A DNA stretch of 64,000 bases from Fusobacterium ulcerans ATCC 49185 (GTDB lineage Bacteria; Fusobacteriota; Fusobacteriia; Fusobacteriales; Fusobacteriaceae), in assembly GCF_900683735.1 (NCBI RefSeq), contig NZ_LR215979.1:2294001-2358000 (forward strand). Direction: 5' to 3'. The notes beneath the pieces are model-generated. The model did not search any database. It had not been told where the DNA came from and worked only from the letters and a program-made list of their open reading frames with translations. The first letter of the stretch is position 1. The number at the start of each line of letters is the position of its first letter. Positions 20,148 to 59,959 of the stretch are shown one piece after another. Position numbers and translations under genes: made by a program.

Positions 20148-21308
20148 TTATTTACTCAAAATTTTCTCTATCCATTCCTGATTATCCAAATACCATCTTA
20201 TTGTCTTTTCTATTCCTTCATCAAAAGATGTTTCTGGATACCACCCTAATTCTGTTACTATCTTCTCTGGATCTATTGCATATCTTGCATCATGACCCAG
20301 TCTATCCTGTACATAGCTTATCAAATCATATGATATATTTTCTACATCAGTTTTTAATACCTTTCTGTACTCTGGTTCCTCTTTCATTATCTTAGCTATA
20401 GTATCTATTGTTAGTTTTACTATATTTATATTCTTTTCTTCATTAAAACCGCCAATATTATACACTTCCCCTAATCTTCCACTATTTATTACCATATCCA
20501 CTGCTTTATTATGGTCTTTTACATAAAGCCAGTCTCTTACATTGCTTCCATCTCCATATACTGGCAGTTTCTTGCCTTCCAGTATATTTTTTATAATAAG
20601 TGGTATCAGCTTTTCTGGAAACTGATATGGTCCATAGTTATTTGAACATCTTGTTATATTCATTGGAAATTTATATGTTTCTGCATATGCTCTTACTATC
20701 ATATCGCTTGATGTTTTTGAGGCTGAATATGGTGATCTAGGATCCAATGGTGTTTCCTCTGTAAAGAATTTATCTCCATATGTTTTCAGATTCTTTCTTC
20801 CTTCTGCTACTTTCTTTACTCTATTATCAAGCACAAGCTCTTTTGCTTCTGTATAGTCCTTTGATAATGAACCATATACTTCATCTGTAGATATATGCAG
20901 AAATTTCTTTCCTTCTTTATATACAGGGTATCCATTTCCATCTTTTCCTATAATCCAGAATTTCTTAGATACTTCCAACAGATTTTGTGTTCCCAATATA
21001 TTTGTTTCCAAGAATATCTGTGGATTTGATATACTTCTGTCTACATGAGATTCTGCTGCAAAATTTACTACATAGTCTATTTCATATCTGGAAAATATAT
21101 CTTCCACCAATTCTCTGTTACAAATATCTCCTTTTACAAAGTCTATCTTTTTAGAGTCTATTTCCTCTTGTATATTTTCTATATTTCCTGCATAAGTAAG
21201 TTTATCCAGAACTACTATTCTTATTTCTTCTTCATATTTTTCAAGTATATATTTTACAAAGTTTGTTCCTATGAAGCCTGCTGCCCCTGTTACAAGATAT
21301 GTCTTCAT
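20148..21308 (-). CDS. rfbB: dTDP-glucose 4,6-dehydratase, copy 1
   Basis: Converts dTDP-glucose to dTDP-4-keto-6-deoxyglucose. Start choice: ATG 21308 (MKTYLVTGAAGFIG) is preceded by AGGAG; the frame extends five codons upstream but into the end of rfbA. The 386 residues are somewhat longer than typical RfbB because of an insert around TEAKELVLDNRVKKVAEG. The NAD motif TGAAGFIG, the active-site STDEVYGS and YSASKTSSD (Tyr-x3-Lys) are intact. It is the last gene of the O-antigen operon. The gene at 49592-50752 is a near-identical second copy, with a run of more than 300 identical bases in the middle. Confidence 0.95.
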   Translation of the reverse strand: MKTYLVTGAAGFIGTNFVKYILEKYEEEIRIVVLDKLTYAGNIENIQEEIDSKKIDFVKGDICNRELVEDIFSRYEIDYVVNFAAESHVDRSISNPQIFLETNILGTQNLLEVSKKFWIIGKDGNGYPVYKEGKKFLHISTDEVYGSLSKDYTEAKELVLDNRVKKVAEGRKNLKTYGDKFFTEETPLDPRSPYSASKTSSDMIVRAYAETYKFPMNITRCSNNYGPYQFPEKLIPLIIKNILEGKKLPVYGDGSNVRDWLYVKDHNKAVDMVINSGRLGEVYNIGGFNEEKNINIVKLTIDTIAKIMKEEPEYRKVLKTDVENISYDLISYVQDRLGHDARYAIDPEKIVTELGWYPETSFDEGIEKTIRWYLDNQEWIEKILSK

Positions 21309-21309
21309 C

Positions 21310-22179
21310 TTATATCTCCTCACTTATTTCCATTAGATATTTTCCATATTCTGTTTTTAATAATGGTTCTGCAAGCTCTACTAATTCTTTCTTAGTTATC
21401 CATCCATTTTTGTATGCTATCTCTTCTATACAAGCTACATAATTCCCTTGTCTATCCTGAATAGTTTCTATAAAATTAGAAGCATGAAGTAAATTTTTGT
21501 GAGTTCCTGTATCAAGCCAAGCAAAACCTCTTCCTAAAAGATTAACTTTTAAATTTCCTTCCATTAAATACAATTTATTTAAATCTGTTATTTCTAATTC
21601 TCCTCTTTTACCTGGTTTTAATCCTTTAGCTTTTTCTATTACTGTATTATCATAAAAATAAAGCCCTGGTATTGCATATTTTGATTTTGGTTTTTCTGGC
21701 TTTTCTTCTAAAGATAGAACATTTCTATTATCATCAAATTCTACTACTCCATATTCTTTTGGATTTTTTACTAGATATCCAAAAATCTCTGCCCCAATTT
21801 TTAATTTTGCTGATTCTCTAATTACTGGTGAAAAAGCTTGTCCAAAAAATAGGTTATCTCCTAATATTAAAGCTACATTATCATTTCCTATAAATTTTTC
21901 TCCTATTATAAAAGCTTCTGCTAATCCATTTGGCTTATATTGAACAGCATATTCTATATTTATTCCAATTTTCTTTCCATCCCCTAATAGTTCTCTAAAA
22001 CACTCTATATCTCTTGGAGTTGAAATTAAAAGTATTTCTTTTATTCCTGCCAGCATCAAAACTGATAGTGGATAATAGATCATAGGTTTATCATATACTG
22101 GAAGTATTTGTTTTGAAACACTTCTAGTTAATGGATGAAGTCTTGTTCCACTTCCTCCTGCTAATATTATTCCTTTCAT
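21310..22179 (-). CDS. rfbA: Glucose-1-phosphate thymidylyltransferase
   Basis: Makes dTDP-glucose, the precursor for both dTDP-Qui4NFo and dTDP-rhamnose. The 289-residue length is standard. The N-terminal [13 protein letters not shown] binds d[22 protein letters not shown] and [12 protein letters not shown] are family hallmarks. It overlaps the upstream formyltransferase by four bases (ATGA) and ends one base before rfbB begins. It is the only rfbA in the window, so the second cluster's rfbB and rfbCD depend on it or on a copy elsewhere. Confidence 0.96.
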
Positions 22180-39041: not shown

Positions 39042-40084
39042 TTAATATTTTTTTATAAAATTTAAAGACTTTTTTATTTTCTTTTCAATTATTCTTCTAA
39101 ATATTTTTCTAGTGAGAACTTTATTCTTCCAATAAAATTTATTAAACAGAGATATTCTATAATACATAATAGTTTTTAATACTTCATTTACATCCATTCT
39201 AATTATTTCCAGCTCTTCTTTTGAATATTTTTCTTCAAAAATAGCTTTTAATTTCATTTCAAAATTTTTTGTCTCTAAAGAGAAATATCCATATTTTGAA
39301 TTTTATAACTCAACGTTTTATAATAAGTCATTAATAAATATATTCTAGTTTTTTTAAAATCATTATTTTCTATTCTACTCATAAATCTTTCTAAATACAT
39401 TACAATTTTTTTATACGCCTCTATTTCTTTTTCTTTATTTGGACTAGTTGTAGTACTTCCATCTCTATTTTGTCTATAATAATAATGAAATTTTTTTATA
39501 TATTTTACATTATTTGATATAATAAATGCTGTAAAATTAAATGAAGTATCTTCATATATGATTTTTTCTATAAATAATATATGATTTTCTTCCAAAAAGG
39601 TCTTTTTATATAATTTAGATGTAACCCCTCTAAATTTAAGTAATTGATTACTCCAAATCATACTTCCATTTCTTGTTTTTTTTTCATATATCTTTTCTGT
39701 TTTTTCATTCTTATTTAGATTGTCATATAAAATAAAATCAGAAAATACTATATCTGCATCTTCTGCATCTTTATATAAATCCTCTATCATTGTTAATTCA
39801 ATAAAATCATCTGGATCAATAAAAGAAATATACTCTCCTTTTGCTATTTTCATACCTGTATTTCTTGCTGATGAAACTCCCCCATTTTCTTTATTTATTA
39901 CAATCATTCTCTTATCAGATAAAAATCTCTCTATTTTTTTCATAGAATTATCTTGTGTTCCATCATTTACTATTATTATTTCTATTTCTTTCAATGTTTG
40001 ATTCACCACTGAATCTAAACATTCTTCAATATATTCTTCTACATTATATACAGGGATAATTACACTTACTTTTATTTTATTCAT
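39042..40084 (-). pseudogene. GT2 glycosyltransferase split by a frameshift
   Basis: The 5' part (40084-39275, 269 codons) is a GT2 transferase: VSVIIPVYNVEEYIEECL, IIVNDGTQDNS, GGVSSARNTG and the metal motif FIDPDDF. It stops at a TAG in the sequence CTTTAGAGAC. The next frame continues directly with LETKNFEMKLKAIFEEKY and runs to 39042 (MKLKAIFEEKYSKEEL and a Lys-rich end), so one missing base near 39276 would restore about 347 residues. The catalytic domain is in the intact part, so a shortened enzyme could still work. It overlaps the upstream ligase remnant by eight bases. It may be a real mutation or a sequencing error. Confidence 0.75.
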
Positions 40085-41244
40085 TGGTATTTTCTCCTCT
40101 TACTTTACACAAAGCTAATGCAAACATAAAGAATGCTAATTGATTAACTTTGCTAAAATAAATATTGCAATCTGTTAATCCAGTTAAATTCAAAAAAGCT
40201 AGTATACTAATAGAGAGATAAATCAATATTTTCTGGCTCTCTATTTGCGATGCCTTTAGTTTTTTTATAAATTCTAAAAGTAAAAAAATATTAAAAAAAA
40301 TATAAAATATTATTGCTCCTATACCTTGAGTCACAATTATTTCTAAAAAGTTATTATGAAGATGTGGATTTTTTTCCCAAGAAATTGCTCCCAATTCATG
40401 ATTGTTATAATAATAAAACCCCAATGCTTTAGATTTATTTTCTTTAAAATCATTAATTCCCTTTAGCCAAATTTTTATTCTTGTTTCTTTTTCTATGTTT
40501 TCCATTGATGTTAATCGCTTTACTCTATGTAGATATTTATTTATATGTGGTTCTTTAATAAAACAAATCCCTAAAATGAAAAAAATTATCAAATATTTAA
40601 ACTTTATTTTAAATTTTATTAAAAGTGTTGTTGCTATTATTAAAGGAATTACTAAAAGTGTTATTCGGCTATTTGTACTGATTAATACTAAAAAGATAAT
40701 ATAAAAATAACACTAGAAATAACTTTAGTAATAATTTTTTTTGAATATAGTAAAAAAAACTCATCAAAACATATATTCCAATTTCAATTGTTAATATTGT
40801 TGGCTCTGTTCTCATTTTTACTCTATAATATGGTGAAAAATTATTCAAATGCCATTCTTCCAGTCCTTTTATTGTAACTATTAATGAGCACAATATAAAA
40901 AGAATAAAAACCATTATAGTATTTTTCACTTAATTCTAATTGGGTTAAACATAAAAATAATATGTAATTATGAATTACTATTTTAAAAATAATTCAATAT
41001 TTAAACTTATAAAATCATTTTAAAAAACTTAGAGTTATAAAAATATATACCCAGCTATACTAATAACTAACCCCATAGATATTTTATTATATTTTTTTTT
41101 ATATAAACAAAAAAATATAGTTATCCCCATTAAAGCATAATCAACAACATATCTATCATTTCCTTTTCTAATTATAAAAAAAAGAAATATCATTGTTAGT
41201 ATACTTAATATTTCAGTATTCTTGTTTAATAAAAATTTTCTCAC
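40077..41244 (-). pseudogene. O-antigen ligase/polymerase-like gene, broken
   Basis: Three pieces of one membrane protein lie in order on the - strand: 41244-41035 (N-terminal helices, 69 codons), 40929-40669 (86 codons with GLEEWHLNNFSPYYRVKMR) and 40592-40077 (C-terminal part with HLHNNFLEIIVTQGIGA, the Wzy_C/WaaL region). The third frame extends upstream of 40592 as INTNSRITLLVIPLI, showing that a frameshift near 40700 joins pieces two and three. At least two further stops separate pieces one and two. A complete ligase of the same superfamily exists at 52237-53628. Non-functional unless the sequence is wrong. Confidence 0.78.
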
Positions 41245-41264
41245 TATTTATCCCCTCTACCATT

Positions 41265-42368
41265 TTATAGATTTAAAAGTTCTATGAAAGATTTTTCAAA
41301 TTCATCTACACTTATATTATTTATTTCTAAATTTGAATAATTTTCATCTCTTATATCATTTAGATTTTCTTTTTTCCCCTCTAATATTTTGACAAATTTT
41401 TCATTGTGAGCATATGGAACTTTCTTACTTCTAAATAGAGCTATTTGTTTTTTTCTTAAAGTATATCTAAAATTATATAAGCCTGAATCAAATCCAATAA
41501 AAATTTTTGCCTTTGCTACTATTTCTAAAACACTTTGTAAATTAGTTTTATTCACTAAATTTACTATATTCTCATTTGAACATAACTCAATTATTTTTTT
41601 TGAATATACTTCCTGAGATTTTCCTCCACCCACTAAATAAATTTTCTCTTCTGGGCAAATATCCACTATCTTTTTTATATATTCACTCATTTTATAGGGA
41701 TTACAAATTCTATTTTTATCTGTTGCTCCAACTCCAATTACAATACCTTCATTATAGAGAGAAGTACAAAACTTATCCTTTAAATTTGGTATTAATTCTT
41801 CTTTTTCTATTGGTTTATCAAATAAAAATTCTGCTATCTCTTTTAAAAAGTCAATCACATTTTTCTCTTCTTCATTAAAAATTTTTTTTGTTCTTAATTT
41901 TAAACTAGTTGTATAACAATTATTATTTTTTTTATCTTCTTCTTCTAAAGCTTCTATTCCCAATTTTTCTTTCGAATAAATATTCCTTATAAGATCATCA
42001 TTGCTCCATTCAAGATTGATAAAGTTCTTTATTCCAATTTTATTAATCTGATACATTTTTTTTATTCTTCTAATTAAATTATATCTTTCTTTTCTTGAAA
42101 TAGTAATAATTGGGAATTCTAAAACTTCTCCAAGAAAACCGTATTCTTCTCTTACTAAAAAAAATACATTATTATATTCATACTCTTCAATAATTTTTTC
42201 TATTAATTTACTTCTTATTACAATATCTCCCAATCCATCAGTCATTTTAACTATTATTTTTTGAGGGTCTTTAAAATTTCTTTTTAAAAAACAAAGAAAA
42301 AAATTTGTAAAAAATACATTTATTTCATCTCTTATATATGATTTTTTCAAAAAAAACTTCTTTTTCAT
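41265..42368 (-). CDS. GT9 (heptosyltransferase-like) glycosyltransferase
   Basis: A 367-residue GT9-family protein: KMTDGLGDIVIRSKLIE, IVIGVGATDKNRICNPYKM, IYLVGGGKSQE and FIGFDSGLYNFRYTLRKK. Start choice: ATG 42368 (MKKKFFLKKSYI) matches the paralogue at 55784-56860 and overlaps the upstream stop as ATGA; ATG 42377 is an alternative three codons earlier. It is intact although its upstream neighbours are broken. GT9 enzymes build LPS inner core; this one, with the usual acidic Asp missing near the N-terminus, may use another sugar. Confidence 0.8.
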   Translation of the reverse strand: MKKKFFLKKSYIRDEINVFFTNFFLCFLKRNFKDPQKIIVKMTDGLGDIVIRSKLIEKIIEEYEYNNVFFLVREEYGFLGEVLEFPIITISRKERYNLIRRIKKMYQINKIGIKNFINLEWSNDDLIRNIYSKEKLGIEALEEEDKKNNNCYTTSLKLRTKKIFNEEEKNVIDFLKEIAEFLFDKPIEKEELIPNLKDKFCTSLYNEGIVIGVGATDKNRICNPYKMSEYIKKIVDICPEEKIYLVGGGKSQEVYSKKIIELCSNENIVNLVNKTNLQSVLEIVAKAKIFIGFDSGLYNFRYTLRKKQIALFRSKKVPYAHNEKFVKILEGKKENLNDIRDENYSNLEINNISVDEFEKSFIELLNL

Positions 42369-43112
42369 ATTTTCCATCCTTTTTTTCTCAATTTTTTTTC
42401 TTCGATTTTAGTTGCTCTATAAATTTTAGCTTTTTTATTTTTCTTATAAGTAAAATTACATAGTATGAAAAATCCTTTTTTTTTTATAATATCTTTCCTC
42501 TACTTTATATTTTTTCTATTACCAATAAATCATTCTTCATTATAAAAGATCATTCCATCTCTTAAAATAAAAATACTTTTTCTTTTTCCCTTGAGTATCT
42601 ATTATTTTTATTCCATTTTTAGTTTTATAAAATTTGAAGTATTTAAATCTCCATGATATATTTTTCTTTATGTAATTTATTAATTATTTTCATTATCTTA
42701 TCTATATCTGCAATAGTTTTTATTGGCTCTCCATCTACACATTCCATTAATATGTAACTTTCTTTTATAAAAATCTTTTTCTTTACAATAACTAAAAATG
42801 GAACTGCATATTCTGTAATTCCTTCTTTTATTCTTTCTCTCACATTTATCAAAGTATTCAATGCCTCTCCATTTTTTTTATTAAAGTTTGTATTTTTCTT
42901 TGAGGTATTATAGTTTCTGATTTAGGTGATTTTAATATATACTTCTTTCCTTCTACTTCTATTTTTTTACTACATAATTTCTTTCTGTATTTTTGTAAAC
43001 TTCTAATTTTTCATACTGCTTATCAACTATTTTCTTTCCTAACTCTTTATAAAATATTTCTTTTTCTGGATAATATATATTATATTCTTTATACTTTTCA
43101 TTTTTTTATCAT
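42365..43112 (-). pseudogene. LPS core kinase-like gene, frameshifted copy A
   Basis: Nearly identical in DNA to the intact gene at 56916-57665, which encodes a 249-residue RfaY-like kinase. This copy has many 1-2 base length changes in T/A runs: for example two extra T near 42876, two near 42966, and one missing near 42545, 42635 and 42660. Only 42643-42861 remains as an open frame. The start (complement of 43110-43112) and stop (42365) are both recognisable. Confidence 0.85.
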
Positions 43113-43129
43113 CTTAATTATCCTCTGTT

Positions 43130-44304
43130 CTAAATTTCTTCTATTAATTTTTCATATTCTTTCATCACATTTTTACTGTCAAATTCTTTTACTCTCTCTT
43201 TTATTAAATTTTCATATTTTTTTAATTCTTGATTTTTTAAAATTTTTCTATACTATCAGCAAGTTCTTCTTCGTTTCCAACCTCAAATAAAATTCCACAT
43301 TTTCCTTCTTTTAAAATATCTCTTGGACCTACTGGGCATCTTGAAGAAATTACTACTTTTCCTGAATACCCTGCTTCAACTAATACTAATCCAAATCCCT
43401 CAAATTTTGAACTATGTATAAAAAATTAGAATTTTTTTCAGCCATACATATGGTTTTTCATTCTTCCTAATAAAAATACTAAATTTTCTAACTGATATTC
43501 TTTTATCCATTCTTCTATTATTTTTTAGAAGGTCCATCCCCTATAATATACAGCTTTTGTTCTATACCTTTATCTTTTAGTATTTTAAAACTCTTTAGAA
43601 GAGTATCATAATCTTTTGAATAACATCTAACCTTGATATGGCAATACAATAATCTTCTTCTAACATTTTTATCTGTTCTTTTGTCAGTTCACTTTTATCT
43701 TCCATCAGCTTCTCTATTCTTTCAAAATTAAACGGATTATATATTCTGTTGACTTTTCCTTTCAAAGTTGGATATATATTTTCTATTTCTTCTTTCATTT
43801 CATCGCATATAGCTACTACTCTGTCATATTTTTCTAATCTTTTCCCAAATCTTTTATCTTGCCTTTTTTTTCTTTAAATTAGGTATAGAATTATGAATCC
43901 ACACTATTTTCTTTTTGATGTCTAATTTTTCTATATACTTTGAAGCTCCTCCATCAAAATCTATTACGATATCTATTTCTCCAAGTTTTTAATATCTGCT
44001 GCATATTCTTATACATAATTCTATTTTTTTTTCCATCATCAAATTATACATCAACTTATACGCAATATTTTTCTTTCTTACTTTTATTTTTCTGTTTCTC
44101 TTATGAGTTTTTCTGGTTTTAGGAAAAATATTGTATATCTTTTGGTATATCTCTTTCAAATATATTTTTTTTTCCACAATCATCATCTATCACAAGATAA
44201 ATATCAAATTTTTCTTTATCAATAGTTTGAAGAACTTCTATTAAGACTCTTTCAAGTCCTCCCATTCTTAAACTTCCACTTCTGAATATGACTTTCTTTT
44301 TCAT
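43130..44304 (-). pseudogene. GT4 glycosyltransferase, frameshifted copy A
   Basis: DNA counterpart of the intact 395-codon gene 57683-58870. It begins MKKKVIFRSGSLRMGGLERV at 44304 but is broken at several homopolymers: missing T near 43535 and 43615, missing A near 43425 and 44125, two missing T near 43990, and two extra T near 43435. Surviving frames are 44304-44119, 44186-43989 and 43798-43595. It could not give a full protein as written. Confidence 0.85.
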
Positions 44305-45398
44305 TTATACCTTCCATTTTAATTTATCTATTATTTCTTTAATATCTCTTTTCATTTCTTCTTTATCAAAATCTTTTATCCATCTTCTGTCTTTACACTT
44401 TATTACATAACTCAATTCTGATTTTGGTGAAAAATATTCTATACTGTTTTCATTATCTGGAAATATTGAAATTACTGGTATATTATATGCTGAAGCTATA
44501 TGTACCACTCCAGTATCTACACTTACCAATATATTTGTGTATTTTATCATTGCTGCTGCTTCTAATATATCTTCTGTTTTTCACAAATTTTTATTCTCTC
44601 TTCATTCCACTTTTTATCTCTTTTTTTCTAATTCTTCATATTTATCTGGCAGCGCCATCACATATACAAATTTTTTTTCATTTATTTCTATAAGTTTTTA
44701 CAACTTTCTTTTTCACTTCTTCTATTGATAAATTTTTCTTTATATTTCCACCTGTATAATTAAAAATTATATTTATATTTTTTTAGGAAAATAATCCTTA
44801 TATTTTTCTTCTGTTTCTCCTAAAAATAATTCATATTTTCTATTCTCTACTTTCTTCCCTAATGCTTCTATTCCTGCTAAACTAATATCTCTCATATGAT
44901 TACTTTTTTTTTGTTTCTATATATCTATCAAAAAAAATAGTTAATTCATCTTTTTTATTCCATGTTTTTTTCTTCTCTAAATACTCCCACACTATATCTT
45001 GGTTTCATTATTTTCAAAGCAAATATGCTATAAAATCTTAATCCACTAGTAAAATCAAAATATAGATCATACTTTTTCCTTTTTAACAGTGCATCATACC
45101 AAGAAGATAAAATTCTTAATATTTTCACTCTATGTACAAATCTGCTTCCCCTTTTTGTTTCTATAACATTTAAGTAGGGACAATTTTTAAACAATGGTGT
45201 TACTATCTTATCTAGATAAACATCTATTTCTGCCTCTGGAAAAAAATCATGCAATTCTCTGATCAATGGTGTTTCACATACCATATCTCCTATTCTTCCA
45301 CCAGGAATTAATATTCTTCTTATACTTTTTAACTCTATATCTTTTTCTTTTTTCTTCATTCCTGCTAATCTTATAAAAAAACCTCTGCTCTTACTCAT
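44305..45398 (-). pseudogene. GT9 glycosyltransferase, frameshifted copy A
   Basis: DNA counterpart of the intact 362-codon gene 58871-59959. The N-terminal 145 codons (45398-44955) read identically to the intact copy (GGRIGDMVCETPLIREL) until an extra T near 44967 shifts the frame. The C-terminal 81 codons (44550-44305), with SVDTGVVHIASAYNIPVIS, are again open. Further indels fall near 44580, 44630, 44696 and 44780. Confidence 0.85.
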
Positions 45399-45484: not shown

Positions 45485-46228
45485 TTATATAATTTTATTT
45501 ATCAAATGATGGCATTCTCTCTCAGATTCAGGTGGTATTTTTAAATAATCTCCATATACTTCTTTTAAATATGCATCATAATTATTTGGAACACTATATA
45601 ATTTCCCCTCAAACTCTAATTTTTTTAATGGATAAAAATCATCAAATGGCAAAAGTACTAAATTAAAATGTGCCTCTAATCCTCTTCCAACATATAAAGG
45701 GTTCTTATTCGAAATAATAAAATTTAAAAAGAATTTTTTTCTAAATACTTTTCTTAAAATCTGTGAACGCCAAAATTTAGAGATATTTTTTAAATTGAAT
45801 TTCTTTTTTCCTTTTTCATTTCTTTCGCTTGTTAAATTAATAAAGTATTTATCTATAAATTTCATTAATTTTATATTAGAATAATAATCAAAAGGAAAAA
45901 TATCTATAGCTATCTTCTTTTTTTCTAATTTATCATTAATAATATAATTTTTTTTACTAAATATATTTAAACTTCTATTTTTAAAAAATTTTATTGAAAT
46001 CTCAGGGTGGTCTTCATAATTTTTATAAATAGAGAGTAATTTATTATAATTTTTTCTATCCATCCCTATATCAATATCATCATCCCATGGAATAAAGCCT
46101 TTATGTCTTACTGCCCCTAATAAAGTTCCAAAATCTAACCAGTATTCTATTTCATTTTCATCGCAGATCTCTGCAAATTGATCTAACATTTTCTTTTCTA
46201 TCAGTTGCAGCTTTCTAAGTTCAGTCAT
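45485..46228 (-). CDS. LicD-family transferase 1
   Basis: A 247-residue LicD protein. IEYWLDFGTLLGAVRHKG with FIPWDDDIDIGMDR is the nucleotidyltransferase-fold core with its metal-binding Asp cluster, and VDIFPFDYYSN-like text (IAIDIFPFDYYSN) follows. LicD proteins transfer phosphocholine or related phospho-groups to surface glycans. GGAGGA precedes ATG 46228. It sits between GT9 genes where the intact B block has none, suggesting an insertion in block A. No licABC genes are in the window, so the transferred group is uncertain. Confidence 0.85.
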   Translation of the reverse strand: MTELRKLQLIEKKMLDQFAEICDENEIEYWLDFGTLLGAVRHKGFIPWDDDIDIGMDRKNYNKLLSIYKNYEDHPEISIKFFKNRSLNIFSKKNYIINDKLEKKKIAIDIFPFDYYSNIKLMKFIDKYFINLTSERNEKGKKKFNLKNISKFWRSQILRKVFRKKFFLNFIISNKNPLYVGRGLEAHFNLVLLPFDDFYPLKKLEFEGKLYSVPNNYDAYLKEVYGDYLKIPPESERECHHLINKII

Positions 46229-47382: not shown

Positions 47383-47455
47383 AAGCTCCCCTAAAAAAAA
47401 TTATATATTATTTTTATTTTTCTAATTTTATTCACTTTTAAAGATTATAAAATAT

Positions 47456-47690
47456 TTTTCAAATAAAATTATACATTATATAGTTATTTTTTTCTACTTT
47501 TAAAATTAATAAACTTTTTAAATTTGTTAATTATTATTCTTTAAAACAAAAATTTCATTTATAAAAATATTTCATTTTTATAAAAATAATAAACCATAAA
47601 AATCAATCATATTTCAATAATAACCTTTAAGATTAATTTTAAACTTTTTTGCAATATAATTATGTTAAAATTGTGTTTCAAAGAAATTCA
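47456..47690 (-). repeat. AT-rich inter-operon segment related to 38641-38900
   Basis: Shared anchors in the same order are TTTTCAAAT with AAATTATACA (47456 and 38641), TATTCTTTAAAA (about 47536 and 38731), and TATGTT..TGTGTTT-like text ending CAAAGAAA/TAAAGAAA (about 47660 and 38880). The end part, AAACTTTTT..GCAATATA..TATGTT, also recurs at 49485-49525. Spacing differs and the DNA is AT-rich, so homology is probable rather than certain. Each copy is upstream of a - strand transcription unit. Confidence 0.45.
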
Positions 47691-47773
47691 TATTCTTTTT
47701 TAAACTTATTCATTCTTTATTCATTTTAATTTTTGATTATTTTTATTTTTACTGAGTATATACCCTCTTTTTA

Positions 47774-48000
47774 GTTCTCTTTTATTTAAAAGGCGAACTT
47801 TTATTTTTTAGAACAATTTGTTTTAAAATTCAACTTTTAGAAAACGAATAAAATTAAGGAATAAAGGAAGTAGTGATGTAATATTTTACTATTTTTATTT
47901 ATAAATGTCAATTTTAATAAAATTAAATAGAGAATTCAATTCTATAAAAATAAGAATTTTAGACATAAATTGAACAGGACGTTATTAAATAAAAGAGAAC
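47774..48000. mobile_element. Possible MITE or IS remnant with 16-bp inverted repeats
   Basis: GTTCTCTTTTATTTAA (47774-47789) and its exact reverse complement TTAAATAAAAGAGAAC (47985-48000) flank 195 bases with no open frame. A perfect 16-bp pair at this distance is unlikely by chance even in AT-rich DNA. No clear target-site duplication is visible. Confidence 0.5.
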
Positions 48001-48189
48001 TTTTTTTTATTTTTATGTTTATTCTAAAAACAAAAATAAACTGGCTTTTCAGCCAATCTAATATAATTATTTCTGGATAGATATCAAAAAAAAAATATAT
48101 AATATTGTAAGATTTTTATTTCTAGAACTAATCATAAATATTCTAAAAATTTAAATTAGCGATAGTTAAATAATATCTTTAAAATAGTG

Positions 48190-48300
48190 ATGGTTATCTA
48201 ACTACAGTTAAATATTTGAAAATTAAAATTGAGTTTAATTTACTTGAAGAAAAGATTGAGTATTTAAGAATGGAGAATGAATTTTTTTAAAACTGAATAA
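48190..48300 (+). pseudogene. Possible remnant of an IS3-family OrfA
   Basis: One frame reads LLEEKIEYLRMENEFF before a frameshift, resembling the leucine-zipper end of IS3/IS150 OrfA (typically ...LRMENEFLKKL). The frame shifts at a run of seven T and nothing of OrfB follows. A trace only. Confidence 0.3.
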
Positions 48301-48360
48301 AATATTGAAATAATAAAAATTACATAGACTTTTACAGCAATGAAAAAATTCTCAAAAATT

Positions 48361-48401
48361 AAATGGCTTGAATCTGGTAGAATACCGTTTTCAAACCATT
48401 T
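48361..48401 (-). terminator. Terminator after licD 2
   Basis: A long interrupted stem: on the + strand AAATGG, TTGAA and GGTA pair in order with TACC, TTCAA and CCATTT, with small internal bulges. On the - strand it is followed by AATTTTT. It ends 15 bases past the licD stop at 48416. Confidence 0.8.
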
Positions 48402-48415
48402 AGTTAATCTATTTT

Positions 48416-49162
48416 TTATATAATTTTCTCAACTCCATGTGGAGAAATTCTCTCTTCTTTTGGTGGAAGCTCCATATAATTTCCATATATTTTTTCTAAA
48501 TACATGTGATAGTTTTTAGGAACCTTATAAAATGAACCTTCAAACTCTAATTCTTCTAATGGATAAAATTCATCTGTAGGTAAAAGCATAAGCTTAAAAT
48601 GTGAGTCAATACCACGGCCTACATATGAAGATTTCTGCTTTGAAGTTATCCAGTTTATAAAAAAATTTTTTCTAAAAATATTTCTCATAATTTGTGATCG
48701 AATAAATTTAAAAAAGTTTTGAAAATTATTTTTATAATTTCCATTTTTATTTTTTTTTTCACGAATTAATTCAATAAAATAATCATCAATAAATTTCACT
48801 AAAGAATAATTGGAATAATAATCAAAAGGTAAAATATCGATAGCTATTTTTTTTGTTTTTCCTTTTTTATTTATTATAAAATTACATTTATTTTCTAACT
48901 TTAAAAATTTTTTTCTATGAATTACTAAAGAAAAGTCTGGGTGGTTTTGATATTTTTTATAAATATTCAACAATTTATTATAATTTTTTCTATCCAGAGC
49001 TATATCTATATCATCATCCCAAGGAATAAAACCTTTATGTCTAACAGCACCTAGCAATGTTCCAAAATCTAACCAATATTCTATATTATTTTCTGTACAA
49101 ATTTTTACAAAATATTCTAACATTTCTTTCTCGATTGATTGTAATTTTTCTAGTTCTTTCAT
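48416..49162 (-). CDS. LicD-family transferase 2
   Basis: A 248-residue LicD protein, close paralogue of 45485-46228: IEYWLDFGTLLGAVRHKG, FIPWDDDIDIALDR, YVGRGIDSHFKL and LPTDEFYPLEELEFEG. GAGGGGAAAG precedes ATG 49162. It stands alone between a terminator on its 3' side and a remnant of rfbB upstream, so it may be a separate cassette. Group transferred unknown (phosphocholine is the family precedent). Confidence 0.85.
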   Translation of the reverse strand: MKELEKLQSIEKEMLEYFVKICTENNIEYWLDFGTLLGAVRHKGFIPWDDDIDIALDRKNYNKLLNIYKKYQNHPDFSLVIHRKKFLKLENKCNFIINKKGKTKKIAIDILPFDYYSNYSLVKFIDDYFIELIREKKNKNGNYKNNFQNFFKFIRSQIMRNIFRKNFFINWITSKQKSSYVGRGIDSHFKLMLLPTDEFYPLEELEFEGSFYKVPKNYHMYLEKIYGNYMELPPKEERISPHGVEKII

Positions 49163-49274: not shown

Positions 49275-49415
49275 TCTCAAATACCACCTTATTGTTTTTT
49301 ATATTCCTTTATCAAATGATGTTTCTAAATACTCCTATATTTTATCTGAATCTATTGCATATCTCGCATCATGTCCTAATATATCCTGTACAAGAATTTA
49401 TCAAATCATATGATT
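49275..49415 (-). pseudogene. Remnant of a third rfbB (3' end only)
   Basis: Aligned with the 3' end of rfbB (20180-20356), the anchors AAATACCA.CTTATTGT, ATCAAA.GATGTTTCT, ATCTATTGCATATCT.GCAT and TATCCTGTACA...TTATCAAATCATATGAT appear in order, with an internal deletion of roughly 15-20 bases and scattered changes. It is clearly older than the near-identical copies 1 and 2. Confidence 0.85.
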
Positions 49416-49539
49416 ATTTCGCTCTATTTAAAAAAATAATTAATAAAAGACTAATTTAAATATTAATAATTATCTTTAAATTTAATTCTAAACTTTTTCA
49501 GCAATATATTTATGTTGAAATTATGTTTCCTAATACAAA

Positions 49540-49591: not shown

Positions 49592-50752
49592 TTATTTACT
49601 TAAAACTTTTTCTACCCATCCTTGATTATCTAGATACCATCTTATTGTCTTTTCTATTCCTTCATCAAAAGATGTCTCTGGATACCACCCTAATTCTGTT
49701 ACTATCTTTTCTGGGTCTATTGCATATCTTGCATCATGACCCAGTCTATCCTGTACATAGCTTATCAAATCATATGATATATTTTCTACATCAGTTTTTA
49801 ATACCTTTCTGTACTCTGGTTCCTCTTTCATTATCTTAGCTATAGTATCTATTGTTAGTTTTACTATATTTATATTTTTTTCTTCATTAAAACCGCCAAT
49901 ATTATATACTTCCCCTAATCTTCCATTATTTATTACCATATCTACTGCTTTATTATGATCTTTTACATACAGCCAGTCTCTTACATTGCTTCCATCTCCA
50001 TATACTGGCAGTTTCTTGCCTTCCAGTATATTTTTTATAATAAGTGGTATCAGCTTTTCTGGAAACTGATATGGTCCATAGTTATTTGAACATCTTGTTA
50101 TATTCATTGGAAATTTATATGTTTCTGCATATGCTCTTACTATCATATCGCTTGATGTTTTTGAGGCTGAATATGGTGATCTAGGATCCAATGGTGTTTC
50201 CTCTGTAAAGAATTTATCTCCATATGTTTTCAGATTCTTTCTTCCTTCTGCTACTTTCTTTACTCTATTATCAAGCACAAGCTCTTTTGCTTCTGTATAG
50301 TCTTTTGAAAGTGAACCGTATACTTCATCTGTAGATATATGTAAAAATTTTTTTCCTTCTTTATACACAGGATATCCATTTTCATCTCTTCCTATACTCC
50401 AGAATTTCTTAGATGCTTCCAACAGGTTTTGTGTTCCCAATATATTTGTTTCCAAAAATATCTGAGGATTTGATATACTTCTGTCTACATGAGATTCTGC
50501 TGCAAAGTTTACTACATAGTCTATTTCATATCTGGAAAATATATCTTCCACCAATTCTCTATTGCAGATATCTCCTTTTACAAATTCTACTTTTTTAGAA
50601 TCTATTTCCTCTTGTATATTTTCAATATTTCCTGCATAAGTCAATTTATCTAAAACTATTATTTTTATTTTCTCTTTGTACTTTTCAAGCATATATTTTA
50701 CAAAATTTGTTCCTATGAAGCCTGCTGCCCCTGTTACAAGATATGTCTTCAT
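49592..50752 (-). CDS. rfbB: dTDP-glucose 4,6-dehydratase, copy 2
   Basis: 386 residues, almost identical to the product of 20148-21308: same TGAAGFIG, STDEVYGS and YSASKTSSD motifs. Differences cluster at the two ends (for example YMLEKYKEKIKII against YILEKYEEEIRIV; NQGWVEKVLSK against NQEWIEKILSK), while the middle shares a DNA run of over 300 bases. ATG 50752 directly follows the rfbCD stop, with GGGAGAG inside that gene's end. It is the last gene of the large core cluster, as copy 1 is last in the O-antigen operon. Here it supplies dTDP-rhamnose synthesis. Confidence 0.95.
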   Translation of the reverse strand: MKTYLVTGAAGFIGTNFVKYMLEKYKEKIKIIVLDKLTYAGNIENIQEEIDSKKVEFVKGDICNRELVEDIFSRYEIDYVVNFAAESHVDRSISNPQIFLETNILGTQNLLEASKKFWSIGRDENGYPVYKEGKKFLHISTDEVYGSLSKDYTEAKELVLDNRVKKVAEGRKNLKTYGDKFFTEETPLDPRSPYSASKTSSDMIVRAYAETYKFPMNITRCSNNYGPYQFPEKLIPLIIKNILEGKKLPVYGDGSNVRDWLYVKDHNKAVDMVINNGRLGEVYNIGGFNEEKNINIVKLTIDTIAKIMKEEPEYRKVLKTDVENISYDLISYVQDRLGHDARYAIDPEKIVTELGWYPETSFDEGIEKTIRWYLDNQGWVEKVLSK

Positions 50753-56915: not shown

Positions 56916-57665
56916 TTATATCCTCCATCCTTTTTTTCTCAATTCTTTCTTTTTAGATTTTATCCATTCTATAAATTTTAGTTTTTTTATTTTTCTTATA
57001 AGTAAAATTACATAGTATGAAAAATCCTTGTTTTTTTTATAATATCTTTCTTCTACTTTATATTCTTTTTCTATTACCAATAAATCATTCTTCATTATAA
57101 AAAGATCATTCCATCTCTTAAAATAAAAATACTTTTCCTTTTTCCCTTGAGTATCTATTATTTTTATTCCATTTTTAGTTTTTATAAAATTTGAAGTATT
57201 TAAATCTCCATGATATATTTTTTCTTTATGTAATTTATTAATTATTTTCATTATCTTATCTATATCTGCAATAGTTTTTATTGGCTCTCCATCTACACAT
57301 TCCATTAATATGTAACTTTCTTTTATAAAAATCTTTTTCTTTACAATAACTAAAAATGGAACTGCATATTCTGTAATTCCTTCTTTTATTCTTTCTCTCA
57401 CATTTATCAAAGTATTCAATGCCTCTCCATTTTTTATTAAAGTTTGTATTTTTCTTTGAGGTATTATAGTTTCTGATTTAGGTGATTTTAATATATACTT
57501 CTTTCCTTCTACTTCTATTTTTACTACATAATTTCTTTCTGTATTTTTGTAAACTTCTAATTTTTCATACTGCTTATCAACTATTTTCTTTCCTAACTCT
57601 TTATAAAATATTTCTTTTTCTGGATAATATATATTATATTCTTTATACTTTTCATTTTTTATCAT
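56916..57665 (-). CDS. LPS core kinase-like protein (RfaY family)
   Basis: A 249-residue protein-kinase-fold enzyme. ILMECVDGEPIKTI is the hinge-like region, KIYHGDLNTSNFIK the catalytic loop (His-Gly-Asp, Asn) and IKIIDTQGK the metal-binding DxxG/DTQ region. RfaY/WaaY phosphorylates heptose II of the LPS core. The C-terminal Lys-rich region suggests association with the membrane. Intact counterpart of the broken gene at 42365-43112. It starts 17 bases after the GT4 stop. Confidence 0.83.
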   Translation of the reverse strand: MIKNEKYKEYNIYYPEKEIFYKELGKKIVDKQYEKLEVYKNTERNYVVKIEVEGKKYILKSPKSETIIPQRKIQTLIKNGEALNTLINVRERIKEGITEYAVPFLVIVKKKIFIKESYILMECVDGEPIKTIADIDKIMKIINKLHKEKIYHGDLNTSNFIKTKNGIKIIDTQGKKEKYFYFKRWNDLFIMKNDLLVIEKEYKVEERYYKKNKDFSYYVILLIRKIKKLKFIEWIKSKKKELRKKGWRI

Positions 57666-57682
57666 CTTAATTATCCTCTGTT

Positions 57683-58870
57683 CTAAATTTCTTCTATTAA
57701 TTTTTCATATTCTTTCATCACATTTTTACTGTCAAATTCTTTTACTCTCTCTTTTATTAAATTTTCATATTCTTTTTTTAATTCTTGATTTTTTAAAATT
57801 TTCTCTATACTATCAGCAAGTTCTTCTTCATTTCCAACCTCAAATAAAATTCCACATTTTCCTTCTTTTAAAATATCTCTTGGACCTACTGGGCATCTTG
57901 AAGAAATTACTACTTTTCCTGAATACCCTGCTTCAACTAATACTAATCCAAATCCCTCAAATTTTGAACTATGTATAAAAAAATTAGAATTTTTCAGCCA
58001 TACATATGGGTTTTTCATTCTTCCTAATAAAAATACTAAATTTTCTAACTGATATTCTTTTATCCATTCTTCTATTATTTTTTTAGAAGGTCCATCCCCT
58101 ATAATATACAGCTTTTGTTCTATACCTTTATCTTTTAGTATTTTAAAACTCTTTAGAAGAGTATCATAATCTTTTTGAATAACATCTAACCTTGATATGG
58201 CAATACAATAATCTTCTTCTAACATTTTTATCTGTTCTTTTGTCAGTTCACTTTTATCTTCCATCAGCTTCTCTATTCTTTCAAAATTAAACGGATTATA
58301 TATTCTGTTGACTTTTCCTTTCAAAGTTGGATATATATTTTCTATTTCTTCTTTCATTTCATCGCATATAGCTACTACTCTGTCATATTTTTCTAATCTT
58401 TTCCCAAATCTTTTTATCTTGCCTTCTTTTTTCTTTAAATTAGGTATAGAATTATGAATCCACACTATTTTCTTTTTGATGTCTAATTTTTCTATATACT
58501 TTGAAGCTCCTCCATCAAAATCTATTACGATATCTATTTCTCCAAGTTTTTTTAATATCTGCTGCATATTCTTATACATAATTCTATTTTCTTTTTCCAT
58601 CATCAAATTATACATCAACTTATACGCAATATTTTTCTTTCTTACTTTATATTTTTCTGTTTCTCTTATGAGTTTTTCTGGTTTTAGGAAAAAATATTGT
58701 ATATCTTTTGGTATATCTCTTTCAAATATATTTTCTTTTCCACAATCATCATCTATCACAAGATAAATATCAAATTTTTCTTTATCAATAGTTTGAAGAA
58801 CTTCTATTAAGACTCTTTCAAGTCCTCCCATTCTTAAACTTCCACTTCTGAATATGACTTTCTTTTTCAT
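57683..58870 (-). CDS. GT4 glycosyltransferase
   Basis: A 395-residue GT-B transferase: RSGSLRMGGLERVLIEVL (N-terminal glycine loop), VWIHNSIPNLKKK, AISRLDVIQKDYDTLLKSF, LYIIGDGPSKK and SSKFEGFGLVLVEAGYSGK (E-x7-E). A WaaG-like or polysaccharide GT4 role in the LPS core is likely. It ends 17 bases before the kinase gene and starts immediately after the GT9 stop. The N-terminal methionine-lysine start (MKKKVIFRSG) is shared with broken copy A. Confidence 0.88.
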   Translation of the reverse strand: MKKKVIFRSGSLRMGGLERVLIEVLQTIDKEKFDIYLVIDDDCGKENIFERDIPKDIQYFFLKPEKLIRETEKYKVRKKNIAYKLMYNLMMEKENRIMYKNMQQILKKLGEIDIVIDFDGGASKYIEKLDIKKKIVWIHNSIPNLKKKEGKIKRFGKRLEKYDRVVAICDEMKEEIENIYPTLKGKVNRIYNPFNFERIEKLMEDKSELTKEQIKMLEEDYCIAISRLDVIQKDYDTLLKSFKILKDKGIEQKLYIIGDGPSKKIIEEWIKEYQLENLVFLLGRMKNPYVWLKNSNFFIHSSKFEGFGLVLVEAGYSGKVVISSRCPVGPRDILKEGKCGILFEVGNEEELADSIEKILKNQELKKEYENLIKERVKEFDSKNVMKEYEKLIEEI

Positions 58871-59959
58871 TTATACCTTCCATTTTAATTTATCTATTAT
58901 TTCTTTAATATCTCTTTTCATTTCTTCTTTATCAAAATCTTTTATCCATCTTCTGTCTTTACACTTTATTACATAACTCAATTCTGATTTTGGTGAAAAA
59001 TATTCTATACTGTTTTCATTATCTGGAAATATTGAAATTACTGGTATATTATATGCTGAAGCTATATGTACCACTCCAGTATCTACACTTACCAATATAT
59101 TTGTGTATTTTATCATTGCTGCTGCTTCTAATATATCTTCTGTTTTTTCACAAATTTTTATTCTCTCTTCATTCCACTTTTTTATCTCTTTTTCTAATTC
59201 TTCATATTTATCTGGCAGCGCCATCACATATACAATTATTTTTTCATTTATTTCTATAAGTTTTTTACAACTTTCTTTCACTTCTTCTATTGATAAATTT
59301 TTCTTTATATTTCCACCTGTATAATTAAAAATTATATTTATATTTTCTTTAGGAAAATAATCCTTATACTTTTCTTCTGTTTCTCCTAAAAATAATTCAT
59401 ATTTTCTATTCTCTACTTTCTTCCCTAATGCTTCTATTCCTGCTAAACTAATATCTCTCATATGATTACTTTTTTTTGTTTCTATATATCTATCAAAAAT
59501 AGTTAATTCATCTTTTTTTATTCCATGTTTTTCTTCTCTAAATACTCCCACACTATATCTTGGTTTCATTATTTTCAAAGCAAATATGCTATAAAATCTT
59601 AATCCACTAGTAAAATCAAAATATAGATCATACTTTTTCCTTTTTAACAGTGCATCATACCAAGAAGATAAAATTCTTAATATTTTCACTCTATGTACAA
59701 ATCTGCTTCCCCTTTTTGTTTCTATAACATTTAAGTAGGGACAATTTTTAAACAATGGTGTTACTATCTTATCTAGATAAACATCTATTTCTGCCTCTGG
59801 AAAAAAATCATGCAATTCTCTGATCAATGGTGTTTCACATACCATATCTCCTATTCTTCCACCAGGAATTAATATTCTTCTTATACTTTTTAACTCTATA
59901 TCTTTTTCTTTTTTCTTCATTCCTGCTAATCTTATAAAAAAACCTCTGCTTTTACTCAT
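58871..59959 (-). CDS. GT9 (heptosyltransferase-like) glycosyltransferase
   Basis: A 362-residue GT9 protein: ILIPGGRIGDMVCETPLIREL, IIFNYTGGNIKKNLSIEEV, and NILVSVDTGVVHIASAYNIP, the typical DTGxxHxA donor motif. AGGAGA precedes ATG 59959, which overlaps the end of the upstream GT9 by four bases. Intact counterpart of 44305-45398. Likely adds heptose or a related sugar to the core. Confidence 0.86.
   Translation of the reverse strand: MSKSRGFFIRLAGMKKKEKDIELKSIRRILIPGGRIGDMVCETPLIRELHDFFPEAEIDVYLDKIVTPLFKNCPYLNVIETKRGSRFVHRVKILRILSSWYDALLKRKKYDLYFDFTSGLRFYSIFALKIMKPRYSVGVFREEKHGIKKDELTIFDRYIETKKSNHMRDISLAGIEALGKKVENRKYELFLGETEEKYKDYFPKENINIIFNYTGGNIKKNLSIEEVKESCKKLIEINEKIIVYVMALPDKYEELEKEIKKWNEERIKICEKTEDILEAAAMIKYTNILVSVDTGVVHIASAYNIPVISIFPDNENSIEYFSPKSELSYVIKCKDRRWIKDFDKEEMKRDIKEIIDKLKWKV

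Follow-up and report, generated by a model that had tools for sequence, protein, structure and literature searches.

A recently homogenized lipopolysaccharide gene block in Fusobacterium ulcerans, with frame breaks in one copy that very probably stem from uncorrected homopolymer errors

The genome of Fusobacterium ulcerans ATCC 49185 is a single contig of 3,839,419 bp, and its bases 2,294,001–2,358,000, a stretch of 64,000 nucleotides hereafter called the window, include a lipopolysaccharide (LPS)/O-antigen gene cluster with GT9 and GT4 glycosyltransferases, a WaaY-like kinase, LicD proteins and rml genes, as assigned by Pfam. A block of three of these genes (kinase, GT4 and GT9) occurs twice, as block A (42394–45398) and block B (56945–59959), which are separated by 14.5 kb and are about 98% identical according to self-BLAST and pairwise alignment, in agreement with the near-perfect duplication described by the first-pass annotation. 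The core that is free of ordinary divergence spans 42431–45389 in A and 56983–59950 in B. The genes of both copies and their neighbors lie on the reverse strand. In copy B, the ORF list shows all three frames open, namely a WaaY-family kinase (56916–57665) and a GT9 (58871–59959), both identified by Pfam, and a GT4 glycosyltransferase (57683–58870) identified by Pfam and protein search. In copy A, by contrast, the kinase, the GT4 and most of the GT9 are broken as deposited. The WaaY-like LPS core kinase gene (42370–43118) was traced by alignment to the intact copy B, for which Pfam gives WaaY, and to three related genomes; the GT4-type glycosyltransferase gene (43134–44306) by stop-ridden matches to the copy B protein and by run-length differences; and the heptosyltransferase-like GT9 gene (44305–45398) by the ORF list and alignment, with its first approximately 147 codons (44955–45398) open and the remainder broken. 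To the left of copy A lies an intact GT9 gene (41265–42377), which is the same neighbor in G001 and G003, and to its right an intact LicD-family gene (45485–46228), found at the same position in G003. The comparison genomes, which belong to the same genus and are the nearest relatives compared, are G001 (3.30 Mb), F. varium Fv113-g1 (G002) and G003 (3.54 Mb). A search for further carriers of the GT4 gene across genome contigs returned distant relatives only.

The differences between the two copies are highly uneven in kind. Across the 2,959-bp core, a homopolymer-compressed alignment yields a single ordinary substitution, at position 43273, as opposed to about 37 event sites, and all but a few of the remaining differences are T or A runs of altered length, lost bases that had interrupted T runs, or C/T shifts at run edges. 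With MAFFT, copy A shows 29 gap events from 42403 to 44966, of which 20 are deletions and 9 are insertions. The first-pass annotation had spoken of more than fifteen length changes of 1–2 bases, nearly all in T or A runs, with few substitutions; the gap count goes beyond the former figure, and the compressed alignment bears out the latter point. The chance of alteration grows with run length (Fisher P ~2e-34), from 2 of 67 T3, 3 of 38 T4 and 9 of 39 T5 runs to 8 of 11 T6, 3 of 4 T7 and both of the two T8 runs, so that 13 of the 17 T runs of at least six bases are altered in A. Differences that are mostly in homopolymer length, and that increase with the length of the run, are what uncorrected consensus errors are expected to produce. 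A runs are altered as well as T runs, the T bias following composition, and a strand-specific mechanism was rejected on these grounds. In addition, several runs in copy A that are only 3–6 bases long have changed by 2–3 bases. Slippage would not delete C from TTTTCTTTT-like stretches, nor would it change short runs by 2–3 bases, and real decay is expected to add substitutions alongside indels. The right-hand 423 bp of copy A (44967–45389) are identical to B, including their homopolymers, among them ten runs of at least five bases. Under evenly spread events such a clean end has P ~0.003, for a stretch chosen post hoc, and a corresponding clean zone is missing at the left end of A. The clean stretch adjoins unique sequence, in keeping with correction by reads or read pairs that had an anchor in this flank.

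Comparison with the related genomes places these breaks in copy A. At the run sites, a six-way kinase gene alignment shows B equal to G001, G002 and G003 and A alone differing, and at the sites inspected B agrees with the related genomes. When the indels between A and B were polarized, which was scored solely where G001 and G003 agree, copy A was found to carry 24 lineage-specific indels over about 2.9 kb, 23 of them of 1–2 bases, and no such indel was seen in copy B. The control stretches, two in number and polarized with G002 and G003, contain 2 indels in about 6.3 kb and 5 in about 6.0 kb, with one indel of 1–2 bases in each. One copy is therefore clean and the other deviant when polarized by relatives, as would be expected of consensus errors. 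Lineage-specific substitutions number 83 in A and 67 in B, and the excess in A includes mis-called run positions. A pseudogene in neutral decay would be expected to show more substitutions than indels, spread over codon positions, a pattern that the single ordinary substitution in the core of A does not resemble.

The gene order at A (GT2, polymerase-like, GT9, kinase, GT4, GT9, LicD, GT9) is that of G003, and G001 shares its left part. It could be supposed that A is not real, and that the assembler placed block B a second time, in a poor-quality version, at this locus, since the core of A otherwise equals B and its consensus is poor. This is highly improbable, as the flanks and gene order of A match those of G003, the left junction is also present in G001, and the end of the kinase gene nearest the neighboring GT9 carries A-type, G001-like sequence rather than B-type sequence. 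Judged by synteny, locus A is genuine. A and B have similar counts of lineage-specific substitutions and are distinguished by a single ordinary substitution, so that they separated recently and were made identical after the divergence from G001. Beyond the block, identity falls to about 65% in the left flank and 89% in the right flank, and such diverged flanks around a near-identical core point to conversion of a tract of about 3 kb between two old paralogous loci, and not to a fresh tandem duplication. Both features expected of a recent duplication or gene conversion, that is, shared lineage-specific substitutions and diverged flanks, are thus present, and A and B were most likely homogenized by gene conversion.

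In F. varium Fv113-g1 (AP017968, PMC5720691), the equivalent locus contains the same genes in two nearby blocks, parts of which are homogenized to more than 99%, as is the case here. The frames of its duplicates, unlike those of A and B, are open, and one segment of 2,239 bp is 99.8% identical with five substitutions and no gap. A second homogenized segment of 1,139 bp is 99.2% identical, and the two GT4 genes are still diverged. Real near-identical duplicates in Fv113-g1 thus differ by substitutions without indels, and provide a model for genuine duplicates in this group. The LPS blocks of Fv113-g1 are homogenized patchily, with identities of 99.8%, 99.2% and 91% in neighboring segments, and this patchwork, together with the diverged GT4 genes, suggests repeated gene conversion between paralogous glycan loci.

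The run-length signature extends beyond the repeat. One such deletion lies at 42403, just outside the identical block, and a single-copy patch (40690–41046, reverse strand) within the gene of an O-antigen polymerase/ligase-like membrane protein (40080–41256) shows several T-run shortenings that are specific to the source genome in comparison with G001 and G003, five of which were detected in a three-way polarized scan. No second copy of this polymerase-like gene was found in the genome. The GT2 gene has one run event, at 39279, and the GT9 at 41265–42377, which lies between two damaged stretches, is clean despite its many long A/T runs. The presence of the signature in single-copy sequence implies either that short-read support was absent beyond the repeat, or that the neighboring genes are truly decaying. 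It speaks against a mechanism acting on the repeat only, while the more general explanation by uncorrected consensus errors is not affected. Across the polymerase-like gene, substitutions of its own lineage fall 14/12/30 on the three codon positions, and this preference for third positions indicates selection on the gene up to very recent times at least; within the damaged patch they fall 6/4/4, too few to be informative. Calls of the polymerase-like and GT2 genes as pseudogenes are, on these comparisons, likewise doubtful.

These observations bear on the alternative that A, together with the neighboring polymerase and GT2 genes, consists of genuine pseudogenes of very recent origin, the redundant locus having been released from selection and having rapidly gained slippage indels in A/T runs. 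The clustering of the breaks in adjacent genes of one locus (39279, 40690–41046 and 42403–44966), the open frames in the rest of the window with the GT9 at 41265–42377 retained, and the provision of an intact kinase, GT4 and GT9 by locus B would all be in keeping with such decay. We nevertheless consider it unlikely, since one ordinary substitution stands against about 37 run-related events, ordinary slippage accounts neither for the loss of interrupting C, G or A bases nor for the changes of 2–3 bases in short runs, own-lineage substitutions of the polymerase gene are still biased to third positions, the real duplicates of Fv113-g1 show substitutions without gaps, and mutS and mutL are intact. 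The last point rests on full-length open frames of 878 codons for mutS and 643 codons for mutL, on which basis a mismatch-repair mutator was also rejected.

Genome-wide context was drawn from samples, comprising matched loci, the rRNA operons, and 400 kb taken from 20 places. The rRNA operons, seven in number and 5 kb long each, hold few long A/T runs and show no run-length signature, and the differences among them are mainly substitutions and spacer differences; general polishing failure in all repeats was rejected accordingly. ISL3 transposases were sought as a further repeat control, and none were found. Coding stretches of 14–15% GC elsewhere in the window have open frames, and dropout from low GC alone was rejected, as equally AT-rich coding sequence is open. 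None of the ORF-free stretches in the sampled 400 kb equals the 2.55 kb of copy A. The longest one sampled is 1.66 kb and another is 1.3 kb; one of the two crosses the end/start of the Fv113-g1 record, and the other is partially repeated at further places in the genomes. Both align over their full length with G003 and G002, and neither resembles a damaged gene. As far as the sample shows, the damage therefore appears to be local.

Taken together, the duplication is real and recent, and the indels of copy A are very probably homopolymer consensus errors that were missed by short-read correction, and not biology. Copy A is thus most probably a real, recently homogenized second gene set (WaaY-like kinase, GT4 and GT9), the frames of which are hidden by these errors. 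The pattern of changes, their polarity, their absence from B and from the control stretches, the intact mutS and mutL, and the synteny of locus A were observed here, and the history of sequencing and polishing is inferred. The kinase-GT4-GT9 blocks at the two loci would first have been made identical, most likely through gene conversion, after which a long-read consensus, or another weak in homopolymers, would have left errors in A. Accurate reads from both copies would then probably have been placed on the error-free B, leaving A without reads. In a repeat with one erroneous copy, reads have been described to prefer the error-free instance, so that none are left over the error (PMC8812927), and the published polishing failure resembles the present one in that homopolymer-length indels affect one repeat copy while the other is clean. 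It differs in that the signature here reaches single-copy sequence, and a local lack of short reads must be added; poor local short-read coverage would also account for the patch at 40690–41046. Against this explanation, the deletion at 42403 and the single-copy patch make a repeat-only mechanism incomplete, low GC by itself does not account for that patch, the rRNA operons lack the signature (although they have few long A/T runs), no clean zone at the left end of A matches that at the right, and the intact GT9 at 41265–42377 would also fit selective retention in a decaying locus.

The first-pass annotation had favored a poorly polished long-read consensus, and this reading gains support from the restriction of the changes to A, from the retention in A of the lineage substitutions of B, and from the intact mutS and mutL. 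Between the two possibilities it had left, an intact but hidden gene set or fast decay, the relatives favor the former; the surveyed remainder of the genome has no such clusters, and the Fv113-g1 duplicates differ by substitutions. While its account of the consensus-error pattern stood, it had missed the single-copy signature next door and the clean end of A. A local process scrambling the lengths of A/T runs at A, such as retrocopying of slipped transcripts or localized error-prone repair, has very little probability; were it true, a silent, fast-decaying copy of an LPS block would lie beside an intact one. Automatic annotation would call the three LPS genes and the neighboring polymerase pseudogenes, and a truncated or phase-variable surface glycan would be inferred, although the sequence record, and not the organism, is the likelier source of the apparent breaks. 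The case clearly illustrates that, where indels in A/T runs cluster in a single repeat copy, the reads need to be consulted before genes are declared lost. Understood as uncorrected consensus errors, copy A is ordinary, locally uncorrected sequence over a real homogenized duplicate, and its biological interest is low.

Several further observations were made in the course of these comparisons. In G001, the frames of mutS, mutL, rmlB, GT9 and polymerase genes are split, and A8 and T7 runs are shortened, with A8 given as A7 in otherwise conserved genes; G001 appears to be an uncorrected long-read assembly, the 'pseudogenes' of which would be untrustworthy. Between a GT9 and a LicD gene, a stretch of 1 kb in the window (47401–48418) has no ORF of at least 130 codons, and its GC content falls to 11%. 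A remnant of about 140 bp of the 3' end of rmlB (49278–49419) lies beside a full rmlB (49592–50752), with another rmlB at 20151–21323, and is likely a scar of past recombination.
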